From assembly GCA_015178975.1 (NCBI GenBank), contig WHVD01000103.1:62001-126000 (forward strand): DNA of 64,000 nt. Direction: 5' to 3'. The notes under the pieces are model-generated. The model was not told the origin of the DNA and searched no databases. It saw nothing but the letters and a program-made list of their open reading frames with translations. Positions 1,171 through 62,386 of the stretch are shown here, one piece after another; the first letter of the stretch is position 1; each line of letters begins with the position of its first letter. Origin of the DNA: Hysterangium stoloniferum. Its lineage: Eukaryota > Basidiomycota > Agaricomycetes > Hysterangiales > Hysterangiaceae. The position numbers and the translations under genes were made by a program.

Positions 1171-4100
1171 ATGAGCGCTTACTTTCAAGTCCGCGGATTC
1201 CGGAACTCTAGGAAGGAAAAGGTATCAAAGCATAAGCTCCAGGAGAGCGAACATCCTGTACGATCTATTACAGATGAACAGGTATCGTGTGGATGATTTT
1301 TATCAAATTTTTGTATTCATAAATGGACAGATTAAGATCGCCGCAAGCGAAGCTTCGAGCTCGGTGCCAACAGCAACAGATCTCTTCAAGGATGGAAGTA
1401 AACAAGTCGTGGAGATCCTTCAGGCTGCAGCGGATTATGTTCCACTCCCTTTCGTAAGCGCAGCACTCACGCTAGCTCTGAAGGCGATTAACACCTGTGA
1501 TGTGAGTGTCTTGCGGTATCCGATAGATTCGAAATCAGGATAATAAATAAGCCCGTTGGTCAATTAATCTGATATAGGAAATCTGCACCGTGGGAAAGAA
1601 TGTTAGAGATCTAAAACACCGTATTTGTAGCATTCTCCTGGTGATTGTCGATTCCATTTCGAAGAGGTCCATGAAAGATGTTTCGAGCGTCCCAAAAGAT
1701 TTCGAAATTGCGGTTATTGAGCTAGAGGAGTGTGTATCCAAATTCAAATGAAACATTTATCTACTGATTACAATCATAATTCTGACAGGAAGTTACGAAA
1801 AATAGTTGCAGACCTCGACAGTATCAAAGATCAAAGAGCATTTTCCTTGTTTTTGTTTAAGAATGCAAATATGTTAAAGGTCGCAGAATGCTTCAGGGAA
1901 TTGACCGCCGCAATGGAGAAATTCAATGTACGCGTTCTGTAAAGTCCGCATGGGTGTTTGCCGAGACTCTTTACAGGTAGCGCATGAATTGCGGACGGAG
2001 AGTTCCCTCAGCGAGATCCAGACGCGCTTGTTGAATGTGTCTTTCAAAACGGATCGTATTGCCGGAGGAATAGATCGAGTGGAGGACAAAGTAGATCGAG
2101 TGGTGGACGAAATAGATCGAGTGGTGGACGAAATAGATCGAGTGGTGGACGAAATAGATCGAGTGGTGGTCAAAATAGATAAAGTGGAGGGCAAAATAGA
2201 CACTTTGCGCCCCAACATCCGCCCCCATAACGCAGTCAACAGTTTGGGCTGGAAAAGAATGCCACTTCCACCGGACATCTTTGAAGGCCGGGATTCAATC
2301 GTCGATGAGATCGCTGGTATATTGGACGGATCGGAGATATCCCGCATTTGCATTCTTGGTCCCGGAGGGATGGGCAAAACATCTGTAGCACTGGCCGTTA
2401 TGAAGACATCAGCGGTGGAATATCGCTTCGCAAGTGATAAACGTTTTTGGATTCCGTGCATAGAGGCCACATCAGCTAATCACTTAATCCAAGTTCTGTA
2501 TTCAGCCCTTCGAATCACACGTAGCACTTATGACCCTCTCGAGGATATCCTGACCGAACTTTCCATAACGAAAGACCCTCGTCTTCTCCTCCTCGACAAT
2601 TTTAATACACCGTGGGAGCCTCTCCAAGGCAGTCAGAGGGAGGTGGGGGATGTGCTTCGCCAACTAGCTTCACTTCCTCACGTGGCTTTGTTACTCACCA
2701 TGCGAGCGACATTCCCGCCGCGAAGTGATATTGTTTGGCAACAGAAAAGCCTTTCCCCAATTGATAGTGCTGCTTCTCGAAGAATATTTATACAGATCAA
2801 TGAAGTATCGGCTAGTGATCCCAACATAGATTGTTTGCTAGATGCCCTTGGACACATGCCGTTCGCCGTTACATTGATGGCTACCCTGGCAAAGCAATCG
2901 GGTGCCAATGCTCAACAATTGCTACATGACTGGAGACGAGATGGTACCAACATGATATCACACACGTCTTCTAATGAGGAAAATATGAACTGCAGCATCA
3001 GTCTTTCTGTTGGCAGTCGACTAATGGAACGGAATCCGGAGGCGTTGGATTTATTTGCTACACTGTCAATGCTACCAGCTGGAACAACGTTTCAAAAGCT
3101 GGATCATTGGATCCCCACATTGACTTCTAAAGTAGCATCAATCGCCACTCTTCGCAACGTTGCACTCATTATGGATACTTATGATCGCACTATCCACAAA
3201 CGTTTGTTTGTGCTCCCTGTGGTACAGTCCTACATGCGGTTGGAAGGTCGAATATCATCCCAAATCCGCCAAATGGTTCGCAACCAGTGTTACAAATATA
3301 TCATGGATCACAGTTCCCTTCCGGGATCCCCCTCTTTCAAAGATGATGTACAAGCAATCGCTGCTGAACACAATAACCTATGGACTATTCTCCGGGATGC
3401 AACACACATTGTGGACAGTAATAATGTTTCATACTCAAACAATGATGCAATTGTAGCGCTACTAAACTTCACGGAGCATCATCTTTATACTAAGCCCAAT
3501 CCTGAAATTGCTGAACACACATTTCGATTCGCTCAGTTAACCAAACAGGACCGTCACATAGCCCAAAGCTTATTTCTGCTAGGAAAGACTTATTCTAGCA
3601 TTGATCGCTTTGAAGATGCTTGTCTTTACTTTGAGCAAGGCATTTACACTTTCCAAAATCTTTCAACTGGACCAGATTATTTGATGTCTGGCAAGTGTGC
3701 CTTGTTGCTCGCTGAAGTTTGGAATTACATGGCGATGAAAAGTGACAAAATTGAAGTGCTTGTACTTTCTGCTCAAAAAGACCTTGAAAAGAGTGGTGAT
3801 AGACATGGTATTGCCTTGGGGCAATTGCACATGGGTCGGTTTTACTGGTACAATGGGAAGTTCAAGATAGCATTATCATTTCTGAATATTGCCAAAGGCA
3901 CATTTGAAGCCTTAAATTCTTTACTTGATCTTTGCCTTTGCCTGCATTTCATCCACAGATGTTATGCATTTCAACAGGAATATTTGGATGCCCTGGATTT
4001 TGCAAAACAAGGACTCAAAATAGCTGAGGAAATTGGGCATGATGAAGGCATTCAAACATCTATGAGGGCTGTAGGAATTGATCTTCTTAGTACAGGTCAC

Positions 4101-4394
4101 TATGAAGAAGCCTTGATTATCCTAGAGAAGTCTTTGATACTCGCTCAAGAGTTGGGAAGTCCATTGGCTGCAGCACAGAGTTTAGAGCTCATGGGATATA
4201 TCTATGCTGTGAATGAGAATTTCTCAGCAGCACAAGTTGCTTACAATGGTGCTCGAGGACACTTTAGCTCACTGGTGTTGGAGGGTACAGAGCTTGGCAT
4301 GGCTGGTCACAAGAGATGCACATCCAACATTGCAATTCTGGAATCAGAACCCAATGAATTTTTTGAGAAGCATTCATATGCTATGCTATATTAA
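1171..4394 (+). CDS. NLR-type STAND protein: N-terminal adaptor, coiled coil, NB-ARC, TPR
   Basis: Predicted intracellular NTP-driven receptor or switch. The model has five exons: 1171-1281, 1331-1501, 1578-1729, 1789-1927 and 1977-4394. Introns are 49, 76, 59 and 49 bases, all GT-AG and in consistent phase, giving 996 residues. Residues 1-190 resemble the helical N-terminal domain (MLKL-NTD/adaptor type) seen in basidiomycete NLRs. Residues 216-264 are perfect heptads. The NB-ARC has a P-loop GPGGMGKT near 319, a Walker B LLLLDN near 393, a sensor-like LLLTMR near 428, a GxP-like LGHMPFAV near 482 and a winged-helix region near 550. From about 715 to 960 there are helical repeats of TPR type, such as AQSLFLLGKTYSSIDRFEDA. 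I chose the ATG at 1171 because the exon is conserved in copy 2 and splices in phase; an ATG at 1024 lies in the same frame and is the alternative. The MLKL-like assignment rests on pattern memory, not a profile search. Ligand and effector output are unknown. Confidence 0.85.
2049..2195 (+). repeat. 21-base tandem repeat coding heptad coiled coil
   Basis: Seven in-frame 21-base units inside NLR exon 5 code heptads of the form I-D-R-V-V-D-E. Two of the units are identical in protein and a third differs by one conservative residue. The isoleucine/valine spacing gives a continuous coiled coil linking the N-terminal domain to the NB-ARC. Because unit length is a multiple of three, copy number can change without a frame break. 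The whole segment is missing from copy 2. Confidence 0.93.
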
Positions 4395-7109: not shown

Positions 7110-10100
7110 AATATCCCTTGGGTCACCCTGACCTGTATCACCATCTCCAGGAAATTTGTTTTTTCAGCTCTTATTGATTCTGGCTCGACTCACTGTTTTC
7201 TAGATATGAAATTTACGAAAAAGCATTTGTTGTCAACTTATTCAATAAATCCCATTGGCCTCTGCCTCTTCGATGGCACAAGTAATTTGGTTGTTACCCA
7301 AGCTTGTGATTTACTTAGAAATTGTTGAAGCAACTGGATGTTTTGCAACCCCAGTATCCACATCTGAGCAAGCTGCTGACCTAGAAGGTGTCCCAGAAAA
7401 ACATCATGACTTCATGGATGTTTTTAGTAAGCAGAAAGCTGACCAGCTTCCACCCACAGAGAATATGACTTAAAAATCAATCTTGAAGATGGCACCCAGC
7501 CACCCCTAGGACATATCTACCCACTCTTGTCCACAGAACTTTCCACAATCTGTGATTTTCCTGGATGAACATTTGTCCATAGGTTTTATCAGACCCTCAA
7601 AGTCTCCTTTTGGAGCACCTGTTCTGTTTGTCAAGAAAAAGGATGGATCCCTTTGACTATGTGTTGATTTCAGAGGACTCAATGCTGTCACCAAAAAGGA
7701 TAAGTATCCACTCCCACTTATATCTGATCTACTCAATACCCCACAGAATGTCCAGATTTACACCAAAATAGATCTCAAACATGCCTATCACTTGGTCTAG
7801 ATCTCTGCAGGTCCACTTTTAGAACCCATTATGGGGCCTTTGAGTGGTTGGTGATGCCCTTTGGACTCACCAATGCTCCATCTGTTTTTCAGTATTTTAT
7901 CAATGACATTTTCTCCAACATGCTCGATGTATGCATCATTGTTTACTTGGATGACATTCTTATCTACTCCGAGGACCCCGCAGAACATGACAAACAGGTC
8001 TGTGAAGTTCTCCAGAGACTCAGACAACATGGTTTATTCGCAAATGGTAAAAAATGTACTTTTGACACAGACTCCATGGAATACCTAGGTTTCATTATGG
8101 GACCCGACAGACTCCACATGGACGAAACTAAAGTGCACATCATCAAAGATTGGCCTGAACCCTGAAAAGTTAAAGATATACAATCCTTCCTTGGCTTTGC
8201 CAATTTTTACCAATGGTTTATCTGCAGATACTCTGACATCATGGTTCCCCTTACCTGTCTTATGCATAAGGATACTCCGTGGAATTTTAATGATAAGAGT
8301 CAAAAAGCTTTCAATCTTTTAAAAAATTCTTTTTCATCAGCTCCTGTTCTGTCGCATTGGAAACTGGACTTCCCACTCATTGTTGAAATGGACACCTCAG
8401 ACTATGCATTTGGAGCCATTCTGTCTATCCAGGACTCTGATGGAGAAGTCCACTCCATGGCTTTTCTGTCCTGGACTTTTACCAGAGCAGAGCTCAACTA
8501 TGACATTCATGACAAGGAATTCCTGGCAATTTTTTCAGCTTTCAAAATGTGGCGACACTATTTGGAAGGCTCAGGAACTCCAATTGACATTGTAACAGAT
8601 CACAAAAACCTAAAATATTTTTCTACTACAAAACCTTTGACCCACCGGCAGGCCTGCTGGTCTGAATATCTATCTGCCTTCAATATGATTATCCATTTTT
8701 GACCCAGCCATCTCGGTGGCAAACACAACACTTTAACTAGACGATGGGACATCTATCCTAAAGAGGGGAGCAACAACTATGCCACAGTAAACCCACACAA
8801 CCTGAAACCTATTTTCATGAATCAGCGACTTACCACATCAGTCCACGCAATTTTCCTTGTCCATCCCATTGTCTGTGGAATTATCATTATGGATATTGAG
8901 AAGTTACATCAAGATATTCTATTGGCAATTCCACTAGACCCAATTACTAAAGCACACCTTGACAATCCCGTGGACCCCAATCAACCCTGGTGGTCTGTTG
9001 ATCAGCATGGTTTCATTAGACTTGATGATCGCATCTATGTACCAGACTCCAATGGCCTCCACCTCAGGATCCTTCAGTACAAACATGATCATCCACTCTC
9101 AGGACATTTTGGGTACAACAAAACTCTATCATTAATAAGAAGGGAATATACTTGGCCCAGACTCCGTGGATTCGTTAAGCACTATTGTAAATCTTGCACT
9201 ACTTGTCCCCACTCCAAATCTCAGTGACACAAACCATACGGCCTTTTGAAACAACTCCCAGTACCGGAACACCCATGGAATTCTATTTCTATGGATTTCA
9301 TTGAACACCTACTGGACTCCAAAGGCTTTTCTGCCATTCTAGTCATTGTTGACAGATTCTCAAAACAAGGTATATTCATCCCTACATATGATACAATTAC
9401 ATCCATGCAGTTAGCAGAACTTTTTATTATCCACATATTTTCCAAGCATGGAGTTCTGTCCCATGTAACTTCCGATCGAGGATCAGATTTCATATCTCAC
9501 TTCTTTAGATCCCTCGGGAAATCCTTGGACCTGAAATTACATTTCACGTCCGGACATCACCCAGAAGGTGACGGACAAACTGAATGCATCAATCAGACAT
9601 TGGAACAATACCTCTGCATATATTGCAATTATCAACAGGACAATTGGAAATCCTTGTTACCACTTGCAGAATTTGCTTACAACAATACACCCTCGGCCAC
9701 TACTGGTGTTTCCCCATTCTTTGCAAATAAAGGATATAATCCAAATATTACAGTACATCCAGAATGAAATCTCACCTCTGCTCATGCTCAAGAGTTCACC
9801 ATGGACCTCCATGAGCTCCACAAGGAACTCCGGACTGCAATTAAGTCCACCCAAGAGCAATACCAACATTCAGCAGACAAACACTGGATCCTGCCACCCA
9901 ACTTCAAGATTAGTGATCGTGTTTTTGTCAAAGCTCAACTCTTCCAGACTATTTGTCCATCAAAAAAGCTTGCTGAAAAATATTTAGGTCCTTTTGAAAT
10001 TATCGCACAAGTAGGTTCAGTCTCTTGGACCTTACGGCTCCCAGATAGCATGCACGTGGTACACCCGGTATTTCATGTTTCTATGTTAGAACCTTGTACT

Positions 10101-10373
10101 GCTAACACTATCCCAGATCACATGCAATCTCCACCTCCTCTGGTCATTATTGATGGAGAGCCTGAGTTTGAAATCTCGCAAATTTTAGATTCAAAAATTG
10201 ACAAGCATCAACCCACTTGTAAACTGCTTTACTTGGTTATGTGGGCGGGTTATGAGGGCACCAATGAAGAAACTTCATGGATTTTGGCCACGGAACTCAG
10301 TAATGCCACAGAGATTGTTACTGACTTTCATACAGCTTACCCACTCAAACCTGGACCATTATCTTCTCTCTGA
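7110..10373 (+). pseudogene. Gypsy-1 pol remnant (PR-RT-RH-INT-chromodomain)
   Basis: Protease is marked by LIDSGSTHCFLD near 7165. RT runs from about 7380 to 8165, with the YLDD box near 7945. RNase H is at about 8330-8640. The zinc-binding HHCC region of integrase is at 9080-9227. The integrase core at 9280-9700 shows MDFIEH, TSDRGSDF and a later DGQTE, the usual D, D, E positions. A GPY/F-type linker follows at about 9890-10090, then a chromodomain-like end at 10160-10350 with LVMWAGYEG and SWI. This order identifies a chromovirus. It is a fossil with several breaks. Confidence 0.9.
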
Positions 10374-10566
10374 CTGCACTCCACAGACCCCATGTTATGT
10401 TTGGACTCATTCTCATTATTCCCTGTCGCCCTATGTCTCTCTTTGCTTTTACAGGTTCTGACATGTCTTTCAAGTCTTTAAGCAGATTTTCCACGGACTT
10501 TGATTCTTATGTTTTTCATGCTTTACTTTTATGATTCAAAAAAATTATTATCAAGTTTTATTGTTT

Positions 10567-10866
10567 CTATTCATCTACATTTATGGGGCTGTGTTTTTTC
10601 CCTGCCTCCTCAGCCATCTCCTCAGGGAGCTCCGCAACCTCTGTGGGAACCCCATCCTCATCTGACCTGGCATCCTCGGAACTTCCAATCTGTGGCTCTT
10701 CATATACACAGCCACTGTACTCTGCGAGAAACTTCCAAAATTTGTCATGGAGCCCATGGAGCTCATTGGCCACTACCATCTGCACCTTGTTGGCTTTCCT
10801 CAGCAACTCATTTTGGGCCTCTATGCCCTTGGCGATCTGCCCCAAAACCTCATCCAACCCAGACAA
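10567..10866 (-). pseudogene. Antisense accessory gene of the Gypsy family, 3' part
   Basis: A 99-residue frame on the strand opposite to pol, downstream of the chromodomain. It closely matches the frame at 46406-46693, which has the same position relative to its own Gypsy copy (shared GQIA-GIEAQNELLRK and KKHSPINVD). Such matching in two copies suggests that the family carries this gene. Here its upstream part is missing because the element is cut at about 10872. It is acidic and rich in E, with coiled-coil tendency. Function is unknown. Confidence 0.7.
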
Positions 10867-13084: not shown

Positions 13085-14690
13085 CACCAGTTTGTTTATT
13101 ATTTCTCAATCTCTCTTTTCTCCAGTGAGTGCATGTACCATTTCCTTCTCTCTCTCTGATTGTCCTCCTCTCTCTTTTCTCCAGGACATGCATGTACCCT
13201 TTCCTCCTCTCTTTGTCCTCCTCTGATAAGCCTCATCTCTCTTTCCTCCAGTTGGTGTGTGTACCATTTCCTTCTCCCTCCATCCTGTGCTGATTGGCCT
13301 CCTCTCTTTTCTCCAGCTGGTGCACATTGTATTTCTTTCTTCCTCCATCTTCCTCTGATCAGCCTCCTCTCTCTTTAATCCAGTGAGTGTGTCTACCATT
13401 TCCTTCTCTGTTCATCCTCCTCTGATCTCCTATTCCTCCAGTGAGTGTGTGTACCATTTCCTTCCCTCTCCATCCTCCTCTCATCTGGCCCCTCCCTTTG
13501 CTCCAGGTGTGTGTACCCTTTCCTTCTCTCTCAGTCCTCCTCTGACCAGCCTCCTCTCTCTTTCCTCCAGGAGGTGTGTGTACCCTTTCCTTCTCTCTCC
13601 GTCCTGCTCTGATCAGCCTCCTCTCTCTTCCCTCCAGCTGGTGTGTGTACCATTTCCTTCCACTGTCCTCCTCTGATCGGCACTCTCTCTTTCCTCCAGT
13701 CAGTGCATGTACCATTTCCTTCTTCCTCTGCCCTCCTCTGACTGACCTCCTCTCTCTTTCCTCCAGCCAGTGTGAGTACCATTTCCTTCTCTCTCCATCC
13801 TCTTCTGATTGGCCTCCTGTCTCTTTCCTTCAGCCGGTGCATCCCTCTGGCCTGCTCTGATCTGCCCTCTCTTTCCTCCAGGTGGTGCATCCTTCTCTCC
13901 ATCCTGCTCTGATCAGCCTCCTCTCTTTCCTCCAGCCAGTGTGTGTACTGTTTCCTTCCCTCTCTGTCCTCCTCTGATCAGACTCCTCTTTCCTCCAGTT
14001 GGTGTGTACCATTTCCTTCTCTCTTATCCTCTGATCGACCCCTTTCTCTTTCCTCCAGTTGGTGCATGTACTGTTTCCTGCTCTTTCTGTCCTGCTCTGA
14101 TCAGTCTCCTCTCTTTTCTCCAAAAGGTGTGTGTGCCATGTCTTTCTCTCTTCATCCTCCTATGATTGGCCTCCTCTCTCTTTCCTCTAGGAGGTGCATT
14201 ACACTTTCCTCCACTCTTCATCCCCTTGATTGGCCTCCTCTTTCCTCCAGGATGTGTGTGTACCCATTCCTCCTCTTTGTCCCCTTCTGATCAGTCTCCT
14301 CTCTCTTTCCTCCAGGATGTGCATATCCCCTTTCCTTTCTCTTCATCCTCTTCTGATCGGCTTCCCCTCTGTCCTCCAGGATGTGCATGTCCCTTTCCTT
14401 TCTCTTTGTCCTCCTCTGATCAGCCTGCTCTCTCCTCCAGGGTGTGTGTGTCCCCTTTCTTCTCCCTTCAACCTCTTCTCATTGGCCTCTCTTTCCTCCA
14501 GGAGGTGAATGTCCCCTTTCCTTCTCTCTTCATCCTGCTTTGATCGGCCTCCTCTTTCCTCCAGACAGCAGTGCATGTACCCATTCCTTCTCTCTCAGTC
14601 CTGCTCTGATCAGGCTCCTCTCTCTTTCCTCCAGGAAGTGCATGTACCCTTTCCCTCTCTCTCCATCCTGCTCCCACTGCTTTTTTGAAT
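13085..14690 (+). repeat. CT-rich minisatellite, about 25 units of 48-70 bases
   Basis: Unit consensus in order: CCTCCAG, a short GT-rich stretch (GGTGTGTGTACC), TTTCCTTCTCTC, TCCTCCTCTGATC, GGCCTCCTCTCTCTTT, then CCTCCAG again. Spacing between successive CCAG ends ranges from 48 to 70 bases, mostly 60-67. Unit length is not a fixed multiple of three, and open frames on both strands start and stop irregularly, so it is not coding. Each unit resembles a splice acceptor: CTGAT, pyrimidine tract, CCAG. Confidence 0.95.
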
Positions 14691-17200: not shown

Positions 17201-20200
17201 TGCAGCTACCACTAAAATATAAGTACGTCACCCCATGGCCGTTCCCTCTTCCCTGCTGGGAATCTTTCTGTCTTGTCCCTTCTTTGTCCTATTGTCTAAG
17301 GCTAGATCGCCACGACTTAATTTCTATATTTGGTGACATGAGCGGTTTCCTGGCCTCGCTGTACCATTCTGCCAAAACATCGAACTCCAGAATGGTTTGC
17401 GCTCGAGGCATCCCAGAAACCTCCTCGGTATTGTATCAAGCTATCGCCTCTCAACAGCTCTTAAAATACTAACTAGTCAATACCTGCTCGTGATACATTC
17501 CCGGTGCGTTCTTACTTCCAGAGGCATATGAACTGTCCTCTATTTCAGTGTGGGTCTCTGGCCGATAAAAATCACAGGAGGACACAAACTAAACAATTAT
17601 CCTAAGGAAACATAGATTCAAGTCAACCCTGCCCTCTTTGAGCTGGTGCTCACATGCTATGAGTACTCGCATTGTCATCCCCCGCCTGAGAACGTTTCCT
17701 TGACACATGATGCCGTTACTTGTGCTCTTACCGCCGGCCCACGTTGCTACTCCCCTCACTCTACTGCTCTTAGAAACAGCCCCACTTCTATGCGAATTTC
17801 GAGGCCTTGGTAGATAAAATTATCAAGTTCTTACTACCTACCATCATCGTCATGATTATGACGAGTATTTTATCTATGCGAATCTGGAAGGAGGAGCATT
17901 TGAGGCATGCTCCGGGCACGAGGCGGACCGATTTACAAATTCGGTAAACTTAAAAGCATAGCCCTGGATGAGAATGGACGCATTTCCTCACACTACTATT
18001 ACCCTATGGACTCTATTTGTCACAATGATAGAAACATAACGGAGGTATTGCCGACATATGGACTTAGCTACTTGAAGCTGATTTTTCCGACGGCTATTCT
18101 GCAGTCGAGAGCATAATAATGTGAAATATATCTGACGCTTCGAGCTCTCAGAGTGGCTCAAAGTAGACAGCATCGAGCGCTGTCAAACATAGTTTCGTGG
18201 AACACTTTGGCACTTCAGGTTCTCTATGCCCTTTACCCATGCCCCAGATAAGCTATGTATACATTTCTCACCATTTACCTCTCGCAACCCCCCCTTCTCT
18301 CCGTATCTAAACATTGTTACTCGTCTTGGGAGATTACCTCCAATTTACCTACAATCAGAACGTGAGCCAATGAGCGCTTACTTTCAAGTCCGCGGTTTTC
18401 GGAACTCCAGGAAGGAGACAGCATTAAAGCACAAGCTCCAGCAGAGTGAACATCCTGTACGATCTATCACAGATGAACAGGTATCGTGTGGATGATTTTT
18501 CTCAAAGTCTTGTATTCATAAATGGACAGATTAAGATCGCCGCAGACGAAGACAAGGTTTCGAGCTCGGTGCCAACAACAACAGATCTCTTCAAGGATGG
18601 AAGTAAACAAGTGGTGGGGGTCCTTCAGGCTGCAGCGACTTATGTTCCACACCCTTTCGTAATCATAGTACTCTAGTACTGCTTCTCGAAACATCTTTAT
18701 ACGGATCAATGAAGTATCGGCTAGTGATCCCAACATAGATTGTTTACTAGATGCCCTTGGACACATGCCTCTCGCCGTTGCATTGATGGCTACCCTGGCA
18801 AAAGAATCGGGTGCCAATGCTCAGCAATTGCTAGATGAGTGGAGACGATATGGTACCAACATGATGTCACATACGTCCTCTAATGAGGAAAATATTAACC
18901 GCAGCATCAGTCTTTCTGTTCGCAGTCGACTAATGAAACAGAATCCGGAGGCGTTGCATTTATTTGCTATACTGTCAATGCTACCAGCTGGAACAACATC
19001 TCAAAAGCTGGATCATTGGATCCCTACATTAACTTCTAAAGCATCATCAATCGCCACTCTTCGCAACGTTGCACTCATTATGGATACTTGTGATGGCACT
19101 ACCCACACACGTTTGTTTGTGCTCCCTGTGGTACAGTCCTACATGCGGTTGGAAGGTCGAATTTCATTTCAAATCCGCCAAATGGTTCGCAACCAGTGTT
19201 ACAAATATATCATGGATCACAGTTCCCTTCCGGGATCCCCCTCTTTCAAAGATGATGTACAAGCAATCGCTGCTGAACATAATAACCTATGGACTATTCT
19301 CCGGGATGCAACACACATTGTGGACAGTAATCCTGTTTCATCCTCAAACAATGATGCAATTGTGGCGCTACTCAACTTCACGGAGCATCATCTTTATACC
19401 AAGCCTAATCCTGAGATTGCTGAACACACATTTCGATTTGCTCAGTTAACCAAACAGGATTGTCACATAGCCCAAAGCTTATTTCTGCTAGGAAACGCCT
19501 ATTTCAGCATTGATCGCTTCGCAGATGCTTGTCTTTACTTTGAACAAGGCATTCACACCTTCCAAAATCTTTCAACTGGACCAGATTACTTGATGTCTGG
19601 CAAGTGTGCTTTGTTTCTCGCTGAAGTCGGGCATTACATGGCGATGGAAAGTGACAAAATTGAAGAGATTATACTTGCTGCTCAAAGAGACCTTGAAAAG
19701 AGTGGTGATAAATATGGTATTGCCTTGTGGCAATTGCAAATAGGTCGGTTTCACTGGTACAATGGGGAGTTCAAGATGGCATTATCAATTCTAGATATTG
19801 CCAAAGGGACATTTGAAGCCTTGAATTCTTTACTTGATCTTCGCCTTTGCCTGCATTTGATCCACAGATGTTATGCATTTCAACAGAAATATTCGGAAGC
19901 CCTGGATTTCGCAAAACAAGAACTCAAAATAGCTGAGGAAATTGGGCATGATGAAGGCATTCAAACGTCTATGAGGGCTGTAGCAATTGATCTCATTGGT
20001 ACATATTGCTATGAAGAAGCCTTGAGTACCCTAGAAAAATCTTTGATACTTGCTCAAGAATTGGAGAGTCCATTGGCTGCAGCACAGAGTTTAGAGCTCA
20101 TGGGGTATATCTATGCTGCGAATGAGAATTTCTTGGAAGCACAGGCTGCTTATGATCGTGCTCGAAGGCACTATGGCTCACTGGTGTTGAAAGGTACAGA

Positions 20201-21002
20201 GCCCGAAATGGCTCGTTACAACAAATGCACTTCCAATATTGCAATTCTGGAATCAGAACCCAATGAATTTTTCGAGAAGTATTCATGTCCTATGCTATAT
20301 TAAGGAAAACAAATTCCTTTGTTATCTGGCATGCCAAATTCCATTCATTGTTCTCTATGCAGCCAATATTTGTTTTCTGCCCTCTCCAATCTTCCTCCTA
20401 TACATTTTTCACTCTTTCCATTATGGTTGGTAGCTGTGTTATCATTTTTCCTTCTCTGGTTCTATATCATCTCCTACACCCTTCTGCATTTCCCTTCCTA
20501 TGGTAACCCTAATATGTTCTCAGAACTCTTTCCTATTCCTGGCATTCTCAAGATCTTCTCTTATAGCTTGGAGGGTCTCAAGGATGTGTACCTGTAAAGG
20601 TATCCACAAGAGATGTCAGATATACCTGGGATTAGGTATCATTTTGGCATGTCATCCCTGTAACCATTTTCACTTGTTTTACCTCCATTCATATCATTGT
20701 CTTTCCTTTTAGGATTGACCTTTAACTAAATATATTTTCTTGTAGTCTAGCATTTCTACATTTAAATATTGACTTGGGTATTCCCATCTCTCTTCTCATG
20801 TGACTTGTGAAGCATTGTGTTAAACTCCTGAATACTGTTTATATAGTTAATTCATTTCTATTGTCTTTGGTCTTGCTAAGATGTCTGGAAAACCATTATA
20901 CCTGTTTACTATTCAGGCAAGTTGTTAAAAACATTGAATTGCCACTCATTTAAGTGGTGACTGAGGATGTTGCTCATCTTCAGCCAATCCAATGCATTGA
21001 GT
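17201..21002 (+). repeat. Segmental duplication, copy 2 (carries NLR pseudogene)
   Basis: It starts in the same TGCAGCTACCACTAAAATAT stretch as base 1 and follows copy 1 to about TGCATTGAG at 21000. The coding half is much better conserved than the 3' flank. Copy 2 carries a deletion of about 1.3 kb relative to copy 1, at about 18665-18680. Confidence 0.93.
18370..20303 (+). pseudogene. Truncated NLR paralog lacking linker and P-loop region
   Basis: Exon 1 (18370-18480) and the start of exon 2 (18530 on) match gene 1 with the same splice sites. Immediately after the residues YVPHPFV, at about 18665-18680, the sequence jumps to the equivalent of gene 1 residue 455. Introns 2-4, all heptads, the P-loop and Walker B are therefore gone. 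The two sides are in different frames. Downstream, 512 residues from ATG 18765 are uninterrupted and cover the GxP region, winged helix and TPRs, with about 90 percent identity to gene 1 by eye. As it stands it could at most make a TPR-only protein from an internal start or by unusual splicing. The long intact frame suggests a fairly recent deletion or a kept function. Confidence 0.85.
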
Positions 21003-43944: not shown

Positions 43945-45550
43945 TGTTAGGATACGTACAGGGCGGGTTTCCAGAGAAACCCGCGGAATATCTGGTAGGA
44001 CTTGGCTTCAGCTTATAGGCTGTGCCCTTGCTAGATCATGTTGTCCAATTTCAGACAGGCAGACGGGAATCCCGGGGAGTCCGGGTGAGGGTCATGGGTC
44101 GAGGAGTCGTAGGTCGGAGGTTGTGGGTCATGAGTTGAGGTAGTTGAGAAAGATAGATGCGCTGGAGCCCGTGGGCTCTGACTAGTGTGAGCGGTGTGAT
44201 TCAAGTAGGAGTTTAGAGCAGAAAATGTATTAGATTACTGGGGGAAATCTAAGCTGATTTTCTGACTGGATTGTATGTACAACATCTGCCAGTTTAAATA
44301 GACCGTGGAGTGAATGTCATACCAAATCCAGTAATGATGAAACAAAATGAACAAAACATAAAAACGGGAATAGTAAACACCAAATTTGGTGTTAGGAATG
44401 GGATGGAATGGAGTGGAGTCTGAATAGTGACAAATCATAAACCATGATGGGAAATGGAGCGGGAGCGGAGTCTGAATCATGACAGGTCATTTGACTAAAA
44501 TGGGAATGGGCCTCTGTTAGAGGGATGATGGGTTTTCTGAGCGGGGTCTGGTGACTGATGCATGGGACGAGGTTGGACATAGACAGGGATGGAGTCCAGT
44601 GGGTTTTCCAGTGACTGAAACACAACGTAATGAAGTCAAATGTAGACAAGTCTGACATACTGTTACAACCGGACAATCCCACCGGACTCCGGGCACTAAC
44701 CCGTACGCCCCCACGCACTACAAGCACCAAATGTCTGTTTATAGGATTTCCCGCCCAGACTCTGTACGTCAAGACTTGTTACGTTCGACCTCATTACAAC
44801 ACATATCAGTCACTGGACTTCCCCCGGACTCCATCTCTGTCTATGTCCGTCTTCGTCCCAAGCATCAGTCACCGGACCCCGCTTAGAATCCCATCACCGC
44901 TCTAATCGAGCCCTGTTCCCGTTTTAGTCAAATGACCTGTCACAATTTAGGACTCCGCTCCCACTCCGTTTCCCGTTATGGGTTATGCTTTATCACGATT
45001 CGGACTCCACTCCGTTCTGTCCCGTTCCTGTTTTGTTAGTTTCATTTCGTCATTACTGGATTTGGTATGTCATGCACTCCACGGTCTATATAAACTGGAA
45101 GATGTTGTACATACAATCCAGTCAGAAAATTAGCTTAGATTCCCCCCAGTAAACTAATAACATTTTCCGCTCTAAACCCTTGCTTGATTCACATCGCTCG
45201 CACTAGTCGGAGCCCACGGGCTCCGGCGCATCTATCTCTCTCAACCATCTCGACTCACGACCCACGACCCACGACCTCCGACCTACGACCTACGACCCAC
45301 GAACCCTGCCCAGGCTCCCCGGGATTCCCGTCTGCCTGTTCGAAATTGGACAACACGATCTAGCGCAGCCTATAAGCTGAAGCCAAGTCCTACTAGATAT
45401 CCCATGGGTTTCTCCGGAAATCTGCCCTGTACCGTATCCTAACACGTACGGAGTCCGGCAGGAATTCCAGTAAGCTGATAATGGGTGCGTATAGGGCATG
45501 GGTGCGTATAAGTTAGTGCCCGGAGTCTGGCAGGAGTTCCGGTCGTAACA
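43945..45550 (-). mobile_element. 3' LTR of Gypsy-2, split by a nested LTR
   Basis: On the plus strand it reads TGTTAGGATACG ... GGTCGTAACA. Removing the nested LTR and one target duplication leaves about 817 bases, equal to the 820-base LTR at 58366-59185. A polypurine tract abuts it at 45551, which identifies it as the 3' LTR of the minus-strand element. Confidence 0.85.
44661..45444 (+). mobile_element. Nested Gypsy LTR in inverse orientation, 784 bases
   Basis: It runs from TGTTACAACCGG to GTATCCTAACA, the reverse of its host LTR, with near-matching 5-base flanks CATAC and CGTAC. It is the same LTR family, giving an inverted LTR pair. Confidence 0.85.
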
Positions 45551-45759: not shown

Positions 45760-46693
45760 ATGGGATCAAAACCAACTCCCAAACACATTATGCTGACCAC
45801 CAGGCCCTCCACGGGCACTCTGTATCGGGCGCCTTGGAGTGCAGCCCAACTTTTGGCACAGCGAGAAGAGCAGCGCTGACTTTGTGAAGAAGCAGAGAAG
45901 GAGGCCAGGGAGGCCGAGGAGGCATTGGATAGGGAGTACAAGGTGGCATTGGCTGCAGAGGAAGAGGCTGCACGGGTGGCCATGGAGAAAGTGTGGGTGG
46001 CTGCGGACAGGGCCGCAGTTGTCGCGGGAAAAGTAAGTCCCAAAGATTTTAACTTGTCATTTTCCTTCTACTGACTTGTCATTTTCAGCACAAGGTGACA
46101 GAGGTAGAGTTGGAGTCCGAGGGGGAGCCAGGAAGCTCCCAAAAGGTAAGCATTGGGTCCGTGGGATTACTGTAGAACTAACCATATCAACAGAAGGCAA
46201 GGAAGGTGGCACCAGTCCATTTACCGATGCGGAACGATCTGCGGTGTTCCAGTTGCAATGACCGGAACACAGAATGTAACTGAAAGTCCAGGCAGGGACC
46301 AGGGTGCTTCCAATGCATGTACCTCAAGGCAAGGTGTTCACTCGTCCATGAGCAACCCATGGGATCCAGGGATGGGACATTAGCGGGACAGACGGTTTAG
46401 CCGGGTTGGATGATGCTTTGGGGCAGATTGCTGAGGGCATAGAGGCCCAGAACGAGTTGCTCAGAAAGAGTAACAAGGTACAAGTTATAGTGGCGAATGA
46501 GCTCCGTGGGCTCCACTTGGAATTTTGGAAGTTCCTAGTGGAGTTTGGCGGGTACATATATGAGGAGCTGCAAGCTGGGAGTTCCGAGGATGCCGGGTCG
46601 GATGAGGACAGGGTGCCTGCAGAGGTAGCGGAGCTTCCTCAAGAGGTGGCTGAGGAGGTGGGGAAAAAACACAGTCCCATAAATGTAGACTGA
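45760..46693 (+). pseudogene. Spliced antisense accessory gene of Gypsy-2
   Basis: It lies on the plus strand, opposite to pol, between the polypurine tract and the chromodomain. It starts MGSKPTPK, passes an alanine/glutamate-rich coiled-coil-like part (near 45890-46030) and reaches cysteine codons spaced C-x2-C-x6-C ... C-x2-C-x6-C (46245-46336), like a fungal Zn2Cys6 cluster. It ends with GKKHSPINVD. Two introns of fungal type are visible: 46033-46088 (GTAAGT ... TTTCAG) and 46146-46193 (GTAAGC ... CAACAG). The same C-terminal part is present in Gypsy-1 in the same relative position. A DNA-binding or regulatory protein is a guess from the cysteine spacing. It is a fossil with at least one break. 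Confidence 0.6.
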
Positions 46694-47412
46694 AAAAATG
46701 TAATAAAAGTTTTAATAATAGTTTTTTTTTTTTTGAAATCATAAAAAGTAAAACGTGAAAAACATAAGATCAAAGTCCGTGGGAAAACCACTTAAGGACT
46801 TGAAAACATGTCAGAACCTGTAAAAGCAAAGAGAGACATAGGGTGACGGGGAATAATGTAAATGAGTCCAAATGTAACATGGGGTCCGCAGAGTGTGGTC
46901 AAAGAGAAAATAGTGGTCCGGGTTTGAGTGGGTAAGCTGTATGAAAGTCAGTGACGAGATCCGTGGCATTACCGAGATCCGTGGCCAAAATCCATGAGGT
47001 TTCTTCATTGGTGCCCTCATAACCCGCCCACTTGACCAAGTAAAGCAGTTTACAAGTGTGTCGACGCTTGTCAATTTTTGAATCTAAAATTTGCGAGATT
47101 TCAAACTCGGGTTCTCCGTCAATAATGACCAGAGGAGGCAGAGATTGCATGTGATCCAGGATAGTGTTAGCAGTACAAGGTTCTAACATAGAAACATGAA
47201 ATACCGGGTGTACCGTGCACATGCTATCCAGAAGCTGTAGGGTCCAAGAGACTGAACCTACTTGTGCAATAATTTCAAACAGACCTAAATATTTTTCAGC
47301 AAGCTTTTTTGATGGATGGGTAGTCTGGAAGAATTGAGCTTTGACAAAAACACGGTCACCAATCTTGAAGTTGGGTGGTGGGATCCGGTGTCTGTCCACT
47401 GAAAGTTGGTAT

Positions 47413-47656
47413 TGTTAGATTATATAATACCAACCATTGTTCCAACTGGGACCATATGGTGTACAGCTCTGAGTTCAGTGTGTATATGATCTAATAGGAA
47501 TGGCACTTAGGGTTATATCCTTAAGTACAGTGTAAGACCAAACCTACCCAAGGTCAGATAGTGTAGTGGTTAACACCTTCATTATGTAATCGAGAGATCC
47601 TGGGTTCAATCCCCAGTCTGGCTATTCATTTTCTACAATACTTATGTTTTCTAACA
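47413..47656 (+). mobile_element. LTR-like element with embedded tRNA, target duplication GGTAT
   Basis: It runs from TGTTAGATTATATAATACC to GTTTTCTAACA, 244 bases, with 7-base inverted ends (TGTTAGA/TCTAACA) and GGTAT on both sides. The Gypsy sequence continues cleanly on either side, as comparison with Gypsy-1 near 9860 shows. A 72-base tRNA-like sequence with A and B boxes lies inside. A SINE would be the other reading of a tRNA-bearing insert, but the TG/CA ends and 5-base duplication favour a solo LTR or TRIM-like element. Confidence 0.8.
47552..47623 (+). tRNA. tRNA-like sequence, tRNA-Thr(UGU)-like, probably not functional
   Basis: Seventy-two bases fold with a 7-pair acceptor stem (GGTCAGA with TCTGGCT, two G-T pairs), a D stem GTGT/ACAC with loop AGTGGTTA, and a T stem CTGGG/CCCAG with loop TTCAATC. 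The A-box-like TAGTGTAGTGG and B box GGTTCAATCC are good. The anticodon stem is weak, with two mismatches, and the base before the anticodon is A instead of T. Anticodon position reads TGT. No intron. It is located within the 244-base LTR-like element. Confidence 0.65.
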
Positions 47657-49413
47657 GGTATTGCTCTTGGGCAGACTTTATTGCAGTCCAAAGTTCCTCG
47701 TGGAGCTCGTGGAGGTCCGTGGTGAACTCTTGAGCGTGAGCAGAGGTGAGATTTTGTTCTGGATGTACTGTAATATTTGGATTATATCCTTTATTTGCAA
47801 AGAATGGGGAAACACCAGTAGTGGCCGAAGGTGCATTGTTGTAAGCAAATTCTGCAAGTGGTAACAAAGATTTCCAATTGTCCTGTTGGTAATTGCAATA
47901 TACACAGAGATATTGTTCCAATGTCTGGTTGACGTGTTCGGTTTGTCCATCACCTTCCGGGTGATGTCCAGATGTGAAATGTAATGTCATGTCCAAGGAT
48001 TTCCGGAGGGATCTAAAGAAGTGAGATAGGAACTCTGATCCTTAATCGGATGTCATGTGGGACAGAACTCTATGCTTGGAAAATATGTAGATGATAAAAA
48101 GTTCCGCTAACTGCACAGATGTAATTGTGTCATAAGTAGGGATGAATATACCTTGTTTTGAGAATCTGTCAACAATGACTAGAATAGCAGAAAAGCCTTC
48201 AAAATCCAGTAGGTGTTCAATGAAATCCATAGAGATAGAATTTCATGGATGTTCCGGTACTGGGAGTTGTTTCAAAGGCCATATGGCTTGTGTCGCTGAA
48301 ATTTCGAGCGGGGACAAGTAGTGCAAGATTTACAATAGTGCTTAGTGAATCCACGGAGTCCGGGCCAAGTGTCTCTTCTTATTAATGATAGAGTTTTGTT
48401 GTACCTGAAATGTCCTGAAAGTGGATGATCATGTTTGTACTGAAGGATCCTGAGGTGGAGGCCGTCGGAGTCCGGTACATAGATCCTATTGCCAAGTCTA
48501 ATGAAACCATGCTGATCAAGAGACCACCGGGGTTGATCGGGGTCCATGGGATTGTCAAGGTGAGCTTTAGTTATCAGGTCTAGTGGAATTGCCGATAGAA
48601 TATCTTGATGTAACTTCTCAATATCCATAATGATAATTCCACGGACAATGAGATTGATGAGGAAAGTTGTGCGGACCAATGTGGTAAGTTGCTGATTCAT
48701 GAAAATAGGTTTCAGGTTGTGCGGGTTTACTGTGGCATAGTCATTGCTTCCCTGATTAGGATAGACATCCCATCATCTAGTTAAAGCGTCGGGTTTGCTG
48801 CCGAGGCTGCCGGGTTGAAAGTGGATAATCATATTGAAGGCAGATAGATATTCAGACCAGCGGGCCTGCCGGCGGGTCAAAAGTTTTGTTGTAGAAAGGT
48901 ATTCCAGGTTTTTGTGATCTGTTACAACATCAATAAGAGTTCCCAAGCTTCCAAATAGTGTTGCCATGCTTTGAAAGCTGAAAAAATTGCCAGGAGTTCC
49001 TTATCATGAACGTCATAGTTGAGCTCTGCTCTGTTAAAGGTCTGGGACAGAAAAGCCACAAGGTGGACTTCTCTGTCAGACTCCTGGATAGACAGAATGG
49101 CTCCAAGCACATAGTCTGAGGCATCCATTTCAACGATGAGCGGGAAGTCTGGTTTCCAATGTGACAGAATAGGAGCTGAGGAGAAAGAATGTTTTAAAAG
49201 ATTGAAAGCTTTTTGACACTTAACATTAAAATTCCATGGAGTACCCTTACACATAAGACAGGTAAGGGGTACTGTGATGTCAGAATATCCACAGATAAAC
49301 CATCAGTGAAAATTGGCAAATCGGAGGAAGGATTGTATATCTTTGACTTTTCAGGGTTCAGACCAATCTTTGATGACTTGCACTTTAGTTTCGTCCATGC
49401 AGAGTCCGTCGTC

Positions 49414-55940: not shown

Positions 55941-56236
55941 TGTTACAGTATGATACTACAGCTCTTACATAGTCTATGATGTTCCCTATATTTTTCTGAT
56001 ATTTGTAGGATTTTTCCCAGCATTGTAGGTGCAGTATTGAGTGAGTTACCTAGTAAGGTAACTGATGTGTAGGTGCTTAGGTAAGCACCCTGTAGCATAC
56101 TCCATGGGAAAGTCTCCTTAGTGTTTACTTTCCTCACACTCACAGGTATGTAGTTATTTCACAGTTGAATACATTCAGTGTTTACTTTCCTCACACTCAC
56201 AGGGTGTTTGTCAAAAGTTATTCAACTGTTTCAACA
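55941..56236 (+). mobile_element. 5' LTR of the Copia element
   Basis: TGTTACAGTATGATAC ... CTGTTTCAACA, 296 bases. It contains the doubled CTTTCCTCACACTCACAG block. It is followed at 56237 by GGTTATAGGCCCC, the likely primer-binding site. Confidence 0.9.
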
Positions 56237-56827
56237 GGTTATAGGCCCCTGCTTCTAAACCGGTACATCCAGTTGTCATCTGCGCAATCCATCACTTTGC
56301 ACATCTTTTCTGACAACTTCTACTTGTCCAAAACACTCTACATTGCATTTGGATTTTATTTTGGTTATATCTCCTTGGATTTTGGCCTGATTTGGTCACT
56401 TTTTGGACTCACATCTCACACCTGTAATTGTGCGCATTTTTTGCCCATTTAGGCGCCCGGGTCCATAAAGGGGAATATATTCCCACGCTCCGAATCGCTT
56501 GTCGTCGCTCAATTTCGCTTTTTTGGGCAACTTCATTTTTATCACTCTTGTGACTCACCCTGTCACACCCTGTCACCTCTCTCTCCAGTCACACTCTTCC
56601 CTCACACTTCACAGTATCATCTGGGTCTGTGCCACGTCATTTTACCTTTTAACATGGTCTTTTAGATACATTGAACTTGAACTGTTGGCATTGTGCTCTT
56701 CAGTGAGCCTTTGTTTTTACCTTGCTTGCAATATCACGGTAACCCTGTTGAGCAAGGCGGTGTTACAACTGCTTGTCCAATTACTTAGTTCTTTTTAAGT
56801 TAAATTCTTGGTAGATATTAATGTGTC

Positions 56828-57625
56828 ATGGCATCCAGTGATACTTACAAACATAGTGTCATATTGGGAGAAAATAATTATGAGGATTGGAGACATGACG
56901 TAATTGGTCTTTTGCATATGGAGAACTGTCTCTCTATTGCCACTGGCAAAGAAAAACAACCTAGTGATACTAGTTTACAGTCTGCCTGGTTGGAATGCTC
57001 CAATAAAGCAGCTGGTATTATATGGCGCTCTCTTGGACCTACACAGCGCACCCATGTTGACATTGATGACGGTCCTGATGATATGTGGTCTAAATCTAAA
57101 ATTGAAAAGGCACATAATAAACAACTCCCTGCAGTTCATTTTAGTGCCTCCAATGACCTCTTTAATATTCGGAAGGAACCTGATGAATCTCTGACTTCAT
57201 TAATGAGTTGTGTTGACAAGGTTTGTGTATGTGTCCAGAACTTGCGTCCAAAGGGGTACACTCTTGCCATGCTGGATGATGAGCTTGCTGCTCTCACTTT
57301 ACTTCGTTCTCTGCCTGAATCTGACTCTGTGTGGACTTCATCTTTAATGATGAATACTGCTATCACATTCTCTGATGTCAAAACTCACTTTACATCACAA
57401 GAGAGTCTGCAGTCTGCCAGAAGTTTAGAGATGGTGAACAAGATTGTGTCAAAGACTTCCAACACTTCTGGTAAAGTTCCTTGCACATTCTGCAATGGTT
57501 CCAGCCACACCCAAGACAATTGTTATGAGTATGTAAATGCACAGAAACAGGCAAAGGCCAGAGTTGAGCAGAAGAAAAAGGAGTATAAAGAAAGAAAGAC
57601 TGCTAAGGCTGACAAAGCTATGTAA
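56828..57625 (+). CDS. Copia gag, 265 residues
   Basis: Starts MASSDTYKHSVILGENNYED; the NYEDWRHDV stretch matches the start of UBN2/gag-like capsids of Copia elements. Residues 100-200 carry the capsid-like ETF/LTSL and ELAALTLLRSLPES part. A CCHC knuckle CTFCNGSSHTQDNC is at about 57484-57525. The lysine-rich end follows. This frame looks whole, although the element is broken further on. Confidence 0.85.
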   Translation: MASSDTYKHSVILGENNYEDWRHDVIGLLHMENCLSIATGKEKQPSDTSLQSAWLECSNKAAGIIWRSLGPTQRTHVDIDDGPDDMWSKSKIEKAHNKQLPAVHFSASNDLFNIRKEPDESLTSLMSCVDKVCVCVQNLRPKGYTLAMLDDELAALTLLRSLPESDSVWTSSLMMNTAITFSDVKTHFTSQESLQSARSLEMVNKIVSKTSNTSGKVPCTFCNGSSHTQDNCYEYVNAQKQAKARVEQKKKEYKERKTAKADKAM

Positions 57626-57639
57626 TGCGTCTGACAAGG

Positions 57640-60600
57640 TATCAGAGGAGAAGAAACCAGAGAGTGCTGGAAATGCAAGTGTTTCTATCCCTGACTCTAC
57701 TGATCCATCTAGTGCTCTCCTTGTCAATGCTAGTTCTGACTGGACTGCTGACACAGATGCTTCTTCGCACATAACTCCCCATCGTCATTGGTTTTCAAGT
57801 TATACACCGTTTCAAACACCTATCCAAGTTGCAAATGGACAAATAGCTATGTCTGCAGGGATAGGAGCAGTGCGGTTTAAGCCTAAAGGGAATGGAAATG
57901 TAATAATAGAGTTTGAAAGGGTTCTCCATGTTCCCCATCTCACAAGTAACCTCCTCTCCATCTTGTATTTGACAAAGAAAAAGAATTTCCGTGTCTCTAT
58001 CTTTCGTTCCACCATGTCTTTCTATTTGAGAAAGGTCTTGCGTTTCACTGCCACAGTCAATGAACATAACCAGGCCTATTTGGATGGAATGACGGTACCT
58101 ATGACAGATTATGCGGGTCTTGTTACAACCTGTCCCTTGGACTCCACACTTTGGCATTGTCGCTTTAATCATCTCAATCATGCTGATATCCAGAAGCTCC
58201 TCAAAGGTGATTTGGTTGGTGGGATACAGATTGACTCTCACACGTCTCCTGATCCTATTTGTGAATCTTGTTTGGCTGGAAAACAGAACAGAGTGATTAA
58301 TAACATAGCAACAACACGCTATACTAAACCACTTGCACTCATTCACAGTGATGTTCATGGTCCCTTGTTAGGATACACACACAGGGCGGGTTTCCGGAGA
58401 AACCCGCGGGATATCCGGTAGGACTTGGCTTCAGCTTATAGGCTGCGCCCTCGCTAGATCGTGTTGTCCAATTTCAGACAGGCGGACGGGAATCCCGGGG
58501 AGTCCGGGCGGGGGTTCGTGGGTCGTGAGTCGTAGGTCGTGAGTCGAGAGTCGTGAATCGAGATAGTCGAGAGAGATAGATGCGCCGGAGCCCGTGGGCT
58601 CTGACTAGTGCGAGCGGTCTGATAAGAGTAGGGTTTTAGAGAGGAAAATGTATTAGATTACTGGGGGGAATCTAAGCTAATTTTCTGACTGGATTGTATG
58701 TACAACATCTGCCAGTTTATATAGACCGTGGAATGCATGACATACCGAATCCAGTAATAATGAGACGAAATGAGCAAAACATAAAACGGGAATAGTAAAC
58801 ACCAAATTGGTGTTAGGAACGGGACGGAACGGAGCGGAGTCCGAATCGTGACAAAGCATAACCCATAACGGGAAACGGAGCGGGAGCGGAGTCCTAAATC
58901 GTGACAGGTCATTTGACTAAAACGGGAACGGGGCTCGATTAGAGCGGTGACGGGATTCTAAGCGGGTTCCGGTGACTGATGCGTGGGACGAAGACAGACA
59001 TAGACAGAGACGGGGTCCGGGGGAAGTCCGGTGACTGATATGTGTCTTAATGAGGTCGAATGTAACGAGTCTTGACGTAACGGAGTCCGGGCGGGAGATC
59101 CTATAAACAGACGATTGGTGCTTGTAGCGCGTGGGGGCGTACGAGTTAGTGCCCGGAGTCCCGCGGGATTTGTCCGGTCGTAACATCCCTTGCCTACACA
59201 AACTGTGGAAGGGTTTTGCTACTGGATCACATTCATTGATGATGCCTCACGTTATGCTTCCATTGCATTACTCAAAAATAAGAGTGATGCCTTTCAGGCA
59301 TTTAAGCAATATAAGGCTAAAGTGGAGAACTTGCTTGGTCAGAAGATCAAGATATTCAGAGATGACAAGGGTGGAGAATATATGTCTAAGGAGTTTGATA
59401 TCTTCCTTTCCACTGCTGGCATCAGCCGGCAGCATACTGTGCGGAATGAACCACATCAGAATGGGGTTGCTGAACGCTTCAACAGAACATTGGAAGAAGG
59501 GGCTACTTCAATTATGGCTGAATCCCACCTCCCTCCCTCATTCTGGGGACATGCTGTCATTGCCATTACTCATGTGCGCAACTGCTCACCTACCACTGCT
59601 CTTAAGCATTCTGTGCCTTATACTGTCTGGCATAGTAGGAAACCAGAAGTATCACATCTTAGGGTATTTGGCTGTACTGCTTATGTGCATGTACAAAAGG
59701 ATCAATGTATTGGACTTGGCTCTCACACACAGAAATGTGTCTTTATTGGATATCCTCCAGATTATAAGGGTTGGATGTTTTACAATCCCTTGACTAAGAA
59801 GACTATTATCAGTAATAATGCTGTCTTTGATGAGAGAGTCTTACCAGGCTTGTCTAAACCTGCCATACCTTCTACTCCTACTGCTCCTGATGTTCTTCCT
59901 GATACTCCACAATTTATTGATTTGTTTATTCCTGGACCCTCTAGGTCTATTCAGGTAGGAGCCCAGCCTAATCAGGTGGGAGCTCCACAGGAACCAAATC
60001 TGGTGGGAGATGGTCAGAATAATGTTTTGCCTCCTGGTCCTAGTTCCAACTCTGATTCTAACTCTGAACGTTCTGAACGTTCACTGAGTCCTCCTCCTCA
60101 ACCACATCGCAATCCACCCAGAAACAGAGTTCCTCCTAAGCATTTCTGGCAAGTTGACCCTGCAAACATCCACAACTATAGAGAATCTACTCCTGTATTT
60201 GAGTCCAGTGATGAGGCAGAGGATACTCCACTACATTCTCCTCCTCCAGTTGAGTCTGAGGAAGAAGCCCTAGCTGCCAGTGAGGGAGATCTTTACATTG
60301 GTGTGGATGAAGCCTTTGAGTTTGCCTACAAGGCCAGTGCTCATGATGATGCACTGAGAACTCTCAAGGAGGCCTTACAAAGTCCTGATGCTGACACGTG
60401 GTATGATACTGCATATGCAGAAATGCAATCCCTGTTTGAAAATGACACTTTTCGCCTTGCTAAACTACCTGAGGGTCGTAAAGCTATTGGCTCTCGTTGG
60501 GTGTTTGTGATCAAGCATAAGAAGGATGGGTCAATTGACAAGTTCAAAGCCCATCTTGTTGCAAAAGGCTATGCACAATGACCAGAGTTTGACTTCACTG

Positions 60601-61905
60601 ATACCTTTGCTCCTACTGCCAAATGGGCCACTTTGCGTGCTGTCCTAGCATTGGCTGCACTGGAGGACATGGAACTTGAGAGTGTAGATATCTCCTCTGC
60701 ATTCTTGAATGGTGAATTTGAAGAGGAAGTATACTTGCAGCAGCCTGAAGGTTTTCACCAAGGTGCTCGTGATTAGTTCTTACTTCTTCTGAAAGGACTA
60801 TATGGTTTACGCCAGTCACCTCGTATCTGGCACAAGAAGTTGAATGCTGTCCTGCTCAGTTTGGGTTTCAAACAAGTGCTATGCGATCATAGCATTTGGG
60901 TCTTCCAAAAGGGTGATGTCAAAGTCATTATACCAGTATTTGTAGATGACATGACTATTGCATCTAAATCCAAGGAGGCTATCAAAAAGCTCAAAGATGA
61001 TCTAAAGAGCCACTTCAAATTGCATGATCTTGGTCCTACTTCTTACTTGTTAGGTGTTGGCATTGAAAGAGATAGGACAAAGCATACTATTACTCTATCA
61101 CAGCATCAATACATCTTGGACATGTTACAGCGTTATGGTCTTGCTGACTGCAATCCCATTGGTACACCTATGATACCTAACTCAAAATTGAGTAAAGACC
61201 AGGCTCCGGTGTCTCCTGAAGAGATTGCATACATGAAGGACATTCCATACATCCATGCTGTTGGTTCTCTTATGTATTTGGCTGTTGCCACTCGTCCAGA
61301 CATTGCCTATACTGTTGGAGTATTAGCCAGATTCAATCACAATCCAGGAAAGGCTCATTGGCTAGCAGTACAACATCTCTTTCGATATCTCAAAGGCACC
61401 CTTGACTTGGGCTTGACCTTTGGCCCTAGTAATGACAGGGAATTGTTTGTGTCTTATTCAGATGCTGACCATGGAGGTGATAAGTCGACTGGAAAATCTA
61501 CTGGTGCATATGTGGTTAATATGGGTACTGGAGCCATTAGCTGGCAGAGCAAACTCCAGACTATTGTAACTCTCTACTACTGAAGCAGAGTATATTGCAG
61601 CAGTGTCAGCTGGTCAGGAAGTGCTATGGTTGCAAAACTTATTTGAGGAATTGGGATATCCTCAAAAGACTGCATCCACTTTGTATCTTGACAACCAATC
61701 TTCTATTGCAGTTGCCAGAGATCCTGAACATCATGGCCGTATGAAGCATCTGGACTTGAGAACATATTGGTTAAGGCAGGAAGTTGATAGTGGGAAGATC
61801 AAAGTTGTTCATCTCCCTACTTCAGAGATGCCTGCTGATTTATTGACAAAACCATTGGCTAAGCCAAAGGTAGAATACTTACGAAAACTACTGGGACTAG
61901 CATAG
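57640..61905 (+). pseudogene. Copia pol remnant (PR-INT-RT-RH)
   Basis: Protease begins near 57745 with ADTDASSHIT. The pre-integrase zinc region is at 58140-58300 (HCRFNHLNH, CESCLAG). The integrase core runs to about 59650, with ITFIDDASRY, FRDDKGGEY and NGVAERFNRTLEE giving the D, D, E residues. A proline/serine-rich spacer is at 59860-60260. RT runs from about 60400 to 61150 with WVFVIKHKKDGS, DISSAFLNG and FVDDM. RNase H is at about 61440-61860 with YSDADHGGD and KHLDLRTYW. The Copia order (integrase before RT) is clear. Interrupted by the LTR at 58366-59185 and by a few further breaks. Confidence 0.92.
58366..59185 (-). mobile_element. Solo Gypsy-family LTR, 820 bases, inserted in Copia
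   Basis: TGTTAGGATACAC ... CGGTCGTAACA with TCCCT on both sides (58361-58365, 59186-59190). Same family as the Gypsy-2 3' LTR at 43945-45550. Contains a perfect 9-pair hairpin GCGGGTTTC-CGGA-GAAACCCGC at 58386-58407 and a stretch of short GTCGTGAGTC repeats near 58515-58580. This is the best-preserved copy of the LTR in the window. Confidence 0.93.
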
Positions 61906-61926
61906 AGCTGTCTCATCAGGTGGGAG

Positions 61927-62386
61927 TGTTAGGGTATGATATTACTATTGGAATACGAAGTGAGTCTCGTTACAAACGGATAAGGGCTACAATACATGTA
62001 TCGTCCTTATATGTATACGTCTAGTAACTGCTTACTAATATAGGCGTATGGTCCGTGCTTCTTGCTGCTCGCATATCAGATTCCCAAAATCCAACAATTA
62101 CAGCTCTTACATAGTCTATGATGTTCCCTATATTTTTCTGATATTTTTACTATTTTTCCCAGCACTGTAGGTGCAGTATTGAGTGAGTTACCTAGTAAGG
62201 TAACTGATGTGTAGGTGCTTAGGTAAGCACCCTGTAGCATACTCCGCTGTGGGTGTGGGAAAGTCTCCTTAGTGTTTACTTTCCTCACACTCACAGGTAT
62301 GTAGTTATTTCACAGTTGAATACATTCAGGTTTACTTTCCTCACACTCACAGGGTGTTTGTCAAGAGTTATTCAACTGTTTCAACA
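61927..62386 (+). mobile_element. 3' LTR of the Copia element
   Basis: TGTTAGGGTATGATATTAC ... CTGTTTCAACA, 460 bases including an inserted 151-base element and its 5-base duplication. Preceded by AGGTGGGAG, the polypurine tract. Confidence 0.9.
61946..62096 (+). mobile_element. Short LTR-like insert, 151 bases, target duplication ATTAC
   Basis: Starts TATTGG and ends CCAACA between two ATTAC copies, inside the Copia 3' LTR. The 5' LTR lacks it. The body (TACAAACGGATAAGGGCTAC, CCTTATAT, GTAACTGCTTACTAATA) resembles the short LTRs at 21731 and 31129, so it is a further, shorter member. The first bases probably were TGTTGG. Confidence 0.8.

Follow-up and report, generated by a model that had tools for sequence, protein, structure and literature searches.

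A probable Helenus-type solo LTR carrying a tRNA-like sequence, inserted into a Ty3/gypsy remnant of Hysterangium stoloniferum

A 244 bp insert at positions 47413-47656 (plus strand) of a 64-kb window, the whole stretch of Hysterangium stoloniferum DNA analysed here, appears to be a solo LTR left by an element of the Helenus type, a group of TRIMs whose LTRs contain a tRNA-like sequence. The probability of this reading is put at roughly 0.8. The insert fits those published features that can be read from one solo LTR. Helenus elements were described by Kojima in 2024 as miniature non-autonomous LTR retrotransposons that carry a tRNA-like sequence in the LTRs (PMC10886601), and the name is used in this sense again in a meeting report of 2026 (PMC12859917). 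No case nearer than Helenus was found in the literature searched. The phenomenon itself has been known since 2024, and the insert probably represents a further Helenus family, one with an unusually clean empty site.

The insert begins with TGTTAGA at 47413 and ends with TCTAACA at 47656. It is bracketed by the 5-bp target site duplication (TSD) GGTAT, with the left copy at 47408-47412 and the right copy, read from the sequence, at 47657-47661. An earlier note on this DNA had given these ends, the duplication and the length of 244 bases, all of which are exact and agree with the empty site. The insertion host is a degenerate Ty3/gypsy fragment on the minus strand (46403-49411). By blastn it displays two blocks that match a second gypsy copy at 8105-10860 on the plus strand, with 89% identity over a 1760-column block and 85% over 1014 columns. 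The insert interrupts the integrase/chromodomain end of the degenerate element, and the reading frame beside it (46899-47414, minus strand) has Tf2-1-like SH3 and chromo domains according to Pfam.

When the flanks of the insert are joined across a single GGTAT, they form a 405-base stretch, which was aligned to the second gypsy copy. Identical bases are found in 366 of the 405 columns and different bases in 39, with no gaps, and the second copy holds the 5 bp a single time, as ATACC at 9860-9864 (plus strand). Because the empty site aligns gap-free and carries this pentamer a single time, it directly shows that exactly 244 bp were inserted and 5 bp duplicated: an element with exact TG...CA ends entered an older gypsy copy and duplicated its target. 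The LTR-like nature proposed for the insert is supported, as the TG...CA ends, a short fixed TSD and a clean empty site are all present. A search of viral contigs for relatives of the gypsy integrase, aimed at any fungal contigs that had strayed among them, yielded 11 pattern hits, none of which was confirmed.

The window was also scanned for the frame of the insert, defined as a perfect duplication of 5 bp around a sequence that starts with TG and has inverted ends of 7 bp spaced 100-400 bp apart. The insert is the sole place in the 64 kb that displays all of these. In 100 simulated first-order Markov windows the same frame occurs at a mean of 0.18 places per window, so the frame alone is moderately improbable, and no more than that. 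The insert is single copy in the window: blastn detects the insert itself and eight short matches at chance level (E values of 0.30 to 5.8). Exact patterns taken from the insert have no matches in viral and prokaryotic contig collections, a result that says little since the collections are viral and prokaryotic. Elsewhere in the window, a NACHT/TPR gene is found at 1905-4394, with a downstream paralogue at 18669-20303 that is ∼89% identical. The paralogue is without a counterpart of positions 1469-2764, which span the NACHT stretch. Together with the Tf2-1-like chromodomain and Copia elements, the NACHT/TPR gene suggests a basidiomycete host, probably an agaricomycete. A C + T-rich tandem array with a strong strand skew is present at 13107-14680; its unit measures ∼65-67 bp, and longer periodicities are present at about 129 and 196 bp.

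The tRNA-like sequence is found at 47552-47624 (plus strand) and starts at base 140 of the 244-bp insert. It matches the Rfam tRNA model RF00005 from end to end with a score of 43.7 bits (gathering score 29) and an E value of 5.4e-6 for the window. At E values up to 5 the 64-kb window has three Rfam matches, of which this is the only tRNA. The earlier note had described a 72-base tRNA-like fold; the tRNA-like sequence is real by the Rfam score, and its length is corrected to 73 bases. The pol III A and B boxes noted at the same time were both recovered by pattern scan, box A (TAGTGTAGTGG) at 47559-47569 and box B (GTTCAATCC) at 47604-47612, both on the plus strand and in agreement with the usual consensus.

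The anticodon arm of the tRNA-like sequence is damaged. The Rfam alignment displays two non-standard pairs in this arm, and ARAGORN detects an 8-base loop and a C/C mismatch, leaving the tRNA type open or giving it as His or Thr. Minimum-free-energy folding produces no cloverleaf, and the folding stability is unremarkable (z of -1.28, with 23 of 200 shuffled sequences as stable). Rfam, ARAGORN and folding detect neither the intact anticodon arm nor the assignable isotype of a functional tRNA gene at 47552-47624. As boxes A and B are kept and the anticodon arm is damaged, the promoter looks intact and the tRNA does not, and the sequence is likely a pol III promoter and not a functional tRNA gene. 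Two T4 runs on the plus strand are possible pol III terminators, the first at 47629-47632, which begins 5 bases past the end of the tRNA-like sequence, and the second, detected by pattern scan, at 47647-47650. In yeasts, T4 terminates pol III transcription weakly.

Helenus elements, as defined in the 2024 paper, consist of two LTRs around a short non-coding interior with a primer-binding site and a polypurine tract, and they were screened at TRIM length, below 1000 bp (PMC10886601). They are reported from rusts, a few mushrooms, animals and one plant. Fungal families have 5-bp TSDs. Box A and box B motifs are retained in most Helenus LTRs, and the tRNA isotype is mostly not credible, or is His or Thr where it is credible. 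Certain families persist as fragments and solo LTRs, and many of these solo LTRs have 5-bp TSDs (PMC10886601). The insert resembles these elements in its LTR-type ends and 5-bp TSD, in a tRNA-like sequence that keeps boxes A and B and has no credible isotype (His or Thr by ARAGORN), in its survival as a solo LTR, and in an LTR length of 244 bp that is below the longest reported for Helenus, 323 bp (PMC10886601). It differs in being known from one solo LTR, with no second LTR, primer site or polypurine tract, and it is likened to Helenus by published description.

Two other systems can be compared. SMART and ordinary TRIM elements share the short LTR and the 5-bp TSD, but their LTRs are without a pol III promoter, and they belong to the class that Kojima would call TRIMp2 (PMC10886601). 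A plant LTR element that carries 5S rRNA is similar in that its LTR contains a small-RNA gene whose pol III promoter is internal. It differs in that the gene is 5S rRNA and not tRNA and the host is a plant and not a fungus; also, pol III transcription is reported for the plant element, whereas for the insert we infer it (PMC10886601). The suggestion in the earlier note of a TRIM-type element with a putative pol III promoter is supported and matches published Helenus (PMC10886601); nothing found here supports the insulator or packaging signal that had been suggested for the tRNA.

Under the Helenus-type reading, the parent element would have consisted of two such LTRs flanking a short non-coding middle, and transcription would be driven by the tRNA-derived pol III promoter in the LTR. 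Each end of the element RNA would then carry ∼80-100 bases of repeat, and these would serve strand transfer. The T4 runs of the 5′ LTR, being weak signals, would be read through by the polymerase; that these runs demand read-through counts against the Helenus-type reading, as do the single copy without a second LTR, the weak likeness to the ends of the Copia in the window and a folding in which the cloverleaf is not favoured. Reverse transcriptase and integrase might be supplied in trans by a Copia family, and recombination between the LTRs would later have deleted the interior, so that a solo LTR remained.

Mobilization by Copia has been proposed for fungal Helenus, and in most fungal families the primer site is described as complementing the anticodon loop of a tRNA, with initiator-Met as the dominant type, a feature shared with Copia (PMC10886601). 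One example of this proposed type of helper, a Copia element at 55941-62386 (plus strand), is present in the window. It is delimited by its LTRs, of which the 5′ LTR is 296 bp, and by the TSD AATGA, and it has the Pfam domains RVT_2, rve and gag_pre-integrs. The stretch that follows the 5′ LTR is similar to the complement of the initiator tRNA-Met anticodon arm, with a score of 9.5 that is reached by only 11 of 18,280 20-mers sampled from the window. The 3′ LTR (62086-62120 region) has no counterpart of bases 1-16 of the 5′ LTR, but its far end and the TSD are intact. An 820-bp LTR-like insert at 58366-59185 (TGTTAGGATAC...CGTAACA; TSD TCCCT) interrupts the integrase frame of this Copia element. 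Two relatives of the 820-bp element, ∼85-86% identical, are found tail to tail at 43945-45444, where they form a palindrome of ∼1.5 kb.

The Copia element of the window was considered as the helper on the basis of LTR likeness, and this resemblance is weak and non-significant beyond the outermost bases. With the outermost 5 bases excluded, the start of the insert compared with a related LTR fragment at 16850 is equalled by 116 of 2000 shuffles, and the end of the insert compared with the Copia LTR end by 535 of 2000. Comparison with the whole Copia LTR is equalled by 32 of 300 shuffles, and comparisons with the Copia LTR ends in reverse orientation by 1235 and 1895 of 2000. Judged from sequence, a Copia of the right type, with a 5-bp TSD and an initiator-Met-like primer site, is present in this genome, and its role as helper is only a candidate one.

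A different explanation, which we consider unlikely, is that an ordinary LTR retrotransposon transcribed by pol II, perhaps a full-length Copia, left the insert as its solo LTR. It would have captured a tRNA gene or a SINE, which would ride along in this copy or subfamily as a passenger and would not act as promoter. A solo LTR is silent on what lay between the LTRs, TATA-like stretches are found at 47421-47426, and the decay of the anticodon arm would also suit a passenger. On the other hand, the tRNA-like part is not bracketed by any direct repeat, and boxes A and B are kept where the anticodon arm is not, which is the pattern reported for Helenus LTRs (PMC10886601).

It is highly improbable that the insert is a tRNA-derived SINE whose LTR-like ends arose by chance, even though it is a short insert that contains a tRNA-like sequence with A and B boxes. 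Such SINEs typically have the tRNA head at the 5′ end, tails, and variable and longer TSDs. The insert shares with them the short length and the tRNA-like internal pol III promoter, but the 5′ head, the tail (A-rich or simple-repeat) and the longer variable TSD are not seen in it. Its tRNA-like part begins well inside the element, its ends are exact TG...CA inverted ends with a 5-bp TSD, and A-runs of at least four bases are absent from the whole insert. Insertion of a SINE within this copy was also looked for and rejected: direct repeats of 6 to 9 bp were listed across the insert, and none of them brackets the tRNA-like part. The earlier idea of a hybrid between SINE and LTR element does agree with the origin that Kojima proposes for the Helenus group, a SINE inserted into an LTR (PMC10886601); the bracketing repeat and the A-run that might mark such an event are not found here.

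It is equally improbable that the insert is a MITE that carries a tRNA-like sequence, with terminal inverted repeats of 7 bp and a duplication of 5 bp. The inverted ends are present and the whole plus strand folds with these ends paired, but the two other delimited elements of the window with TGTTA starts and CA ends (the Copia with AATGA and the 820-bp element with TCCCT) also have 5-bp TSDs, the Copia is an LTR retrotransposon, and none of the 10 frames given to Pfam points to a transposase-type element bounded by such ends.

As a probable Helenus-type LTR, the insert extends a recently described group of LTR retrotransposons, in which a tRNA-derived sequence seems to act as pol III promoter, by an example whose empty site is clean. 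The 2024 paper states that experimental proof of pol III transcription of Helenus is lacking (PMC10886601), and each well-delimited fungal family is therefore a possible test object. The insert also shows how such LTRs cause spurious tRNA predictions, as reported for rust fungi (PMC10886601). More speculatively, a solo LTR of this type might act as an independent pol III transcription unit, with scattered single LTRs each yielding a tRNA-like RNA of ∼80-100 bases. If this is true, a family of LTR retrotransposons would scatter pol III units resembling SINEs across the genome, with no need of SINE machinery.
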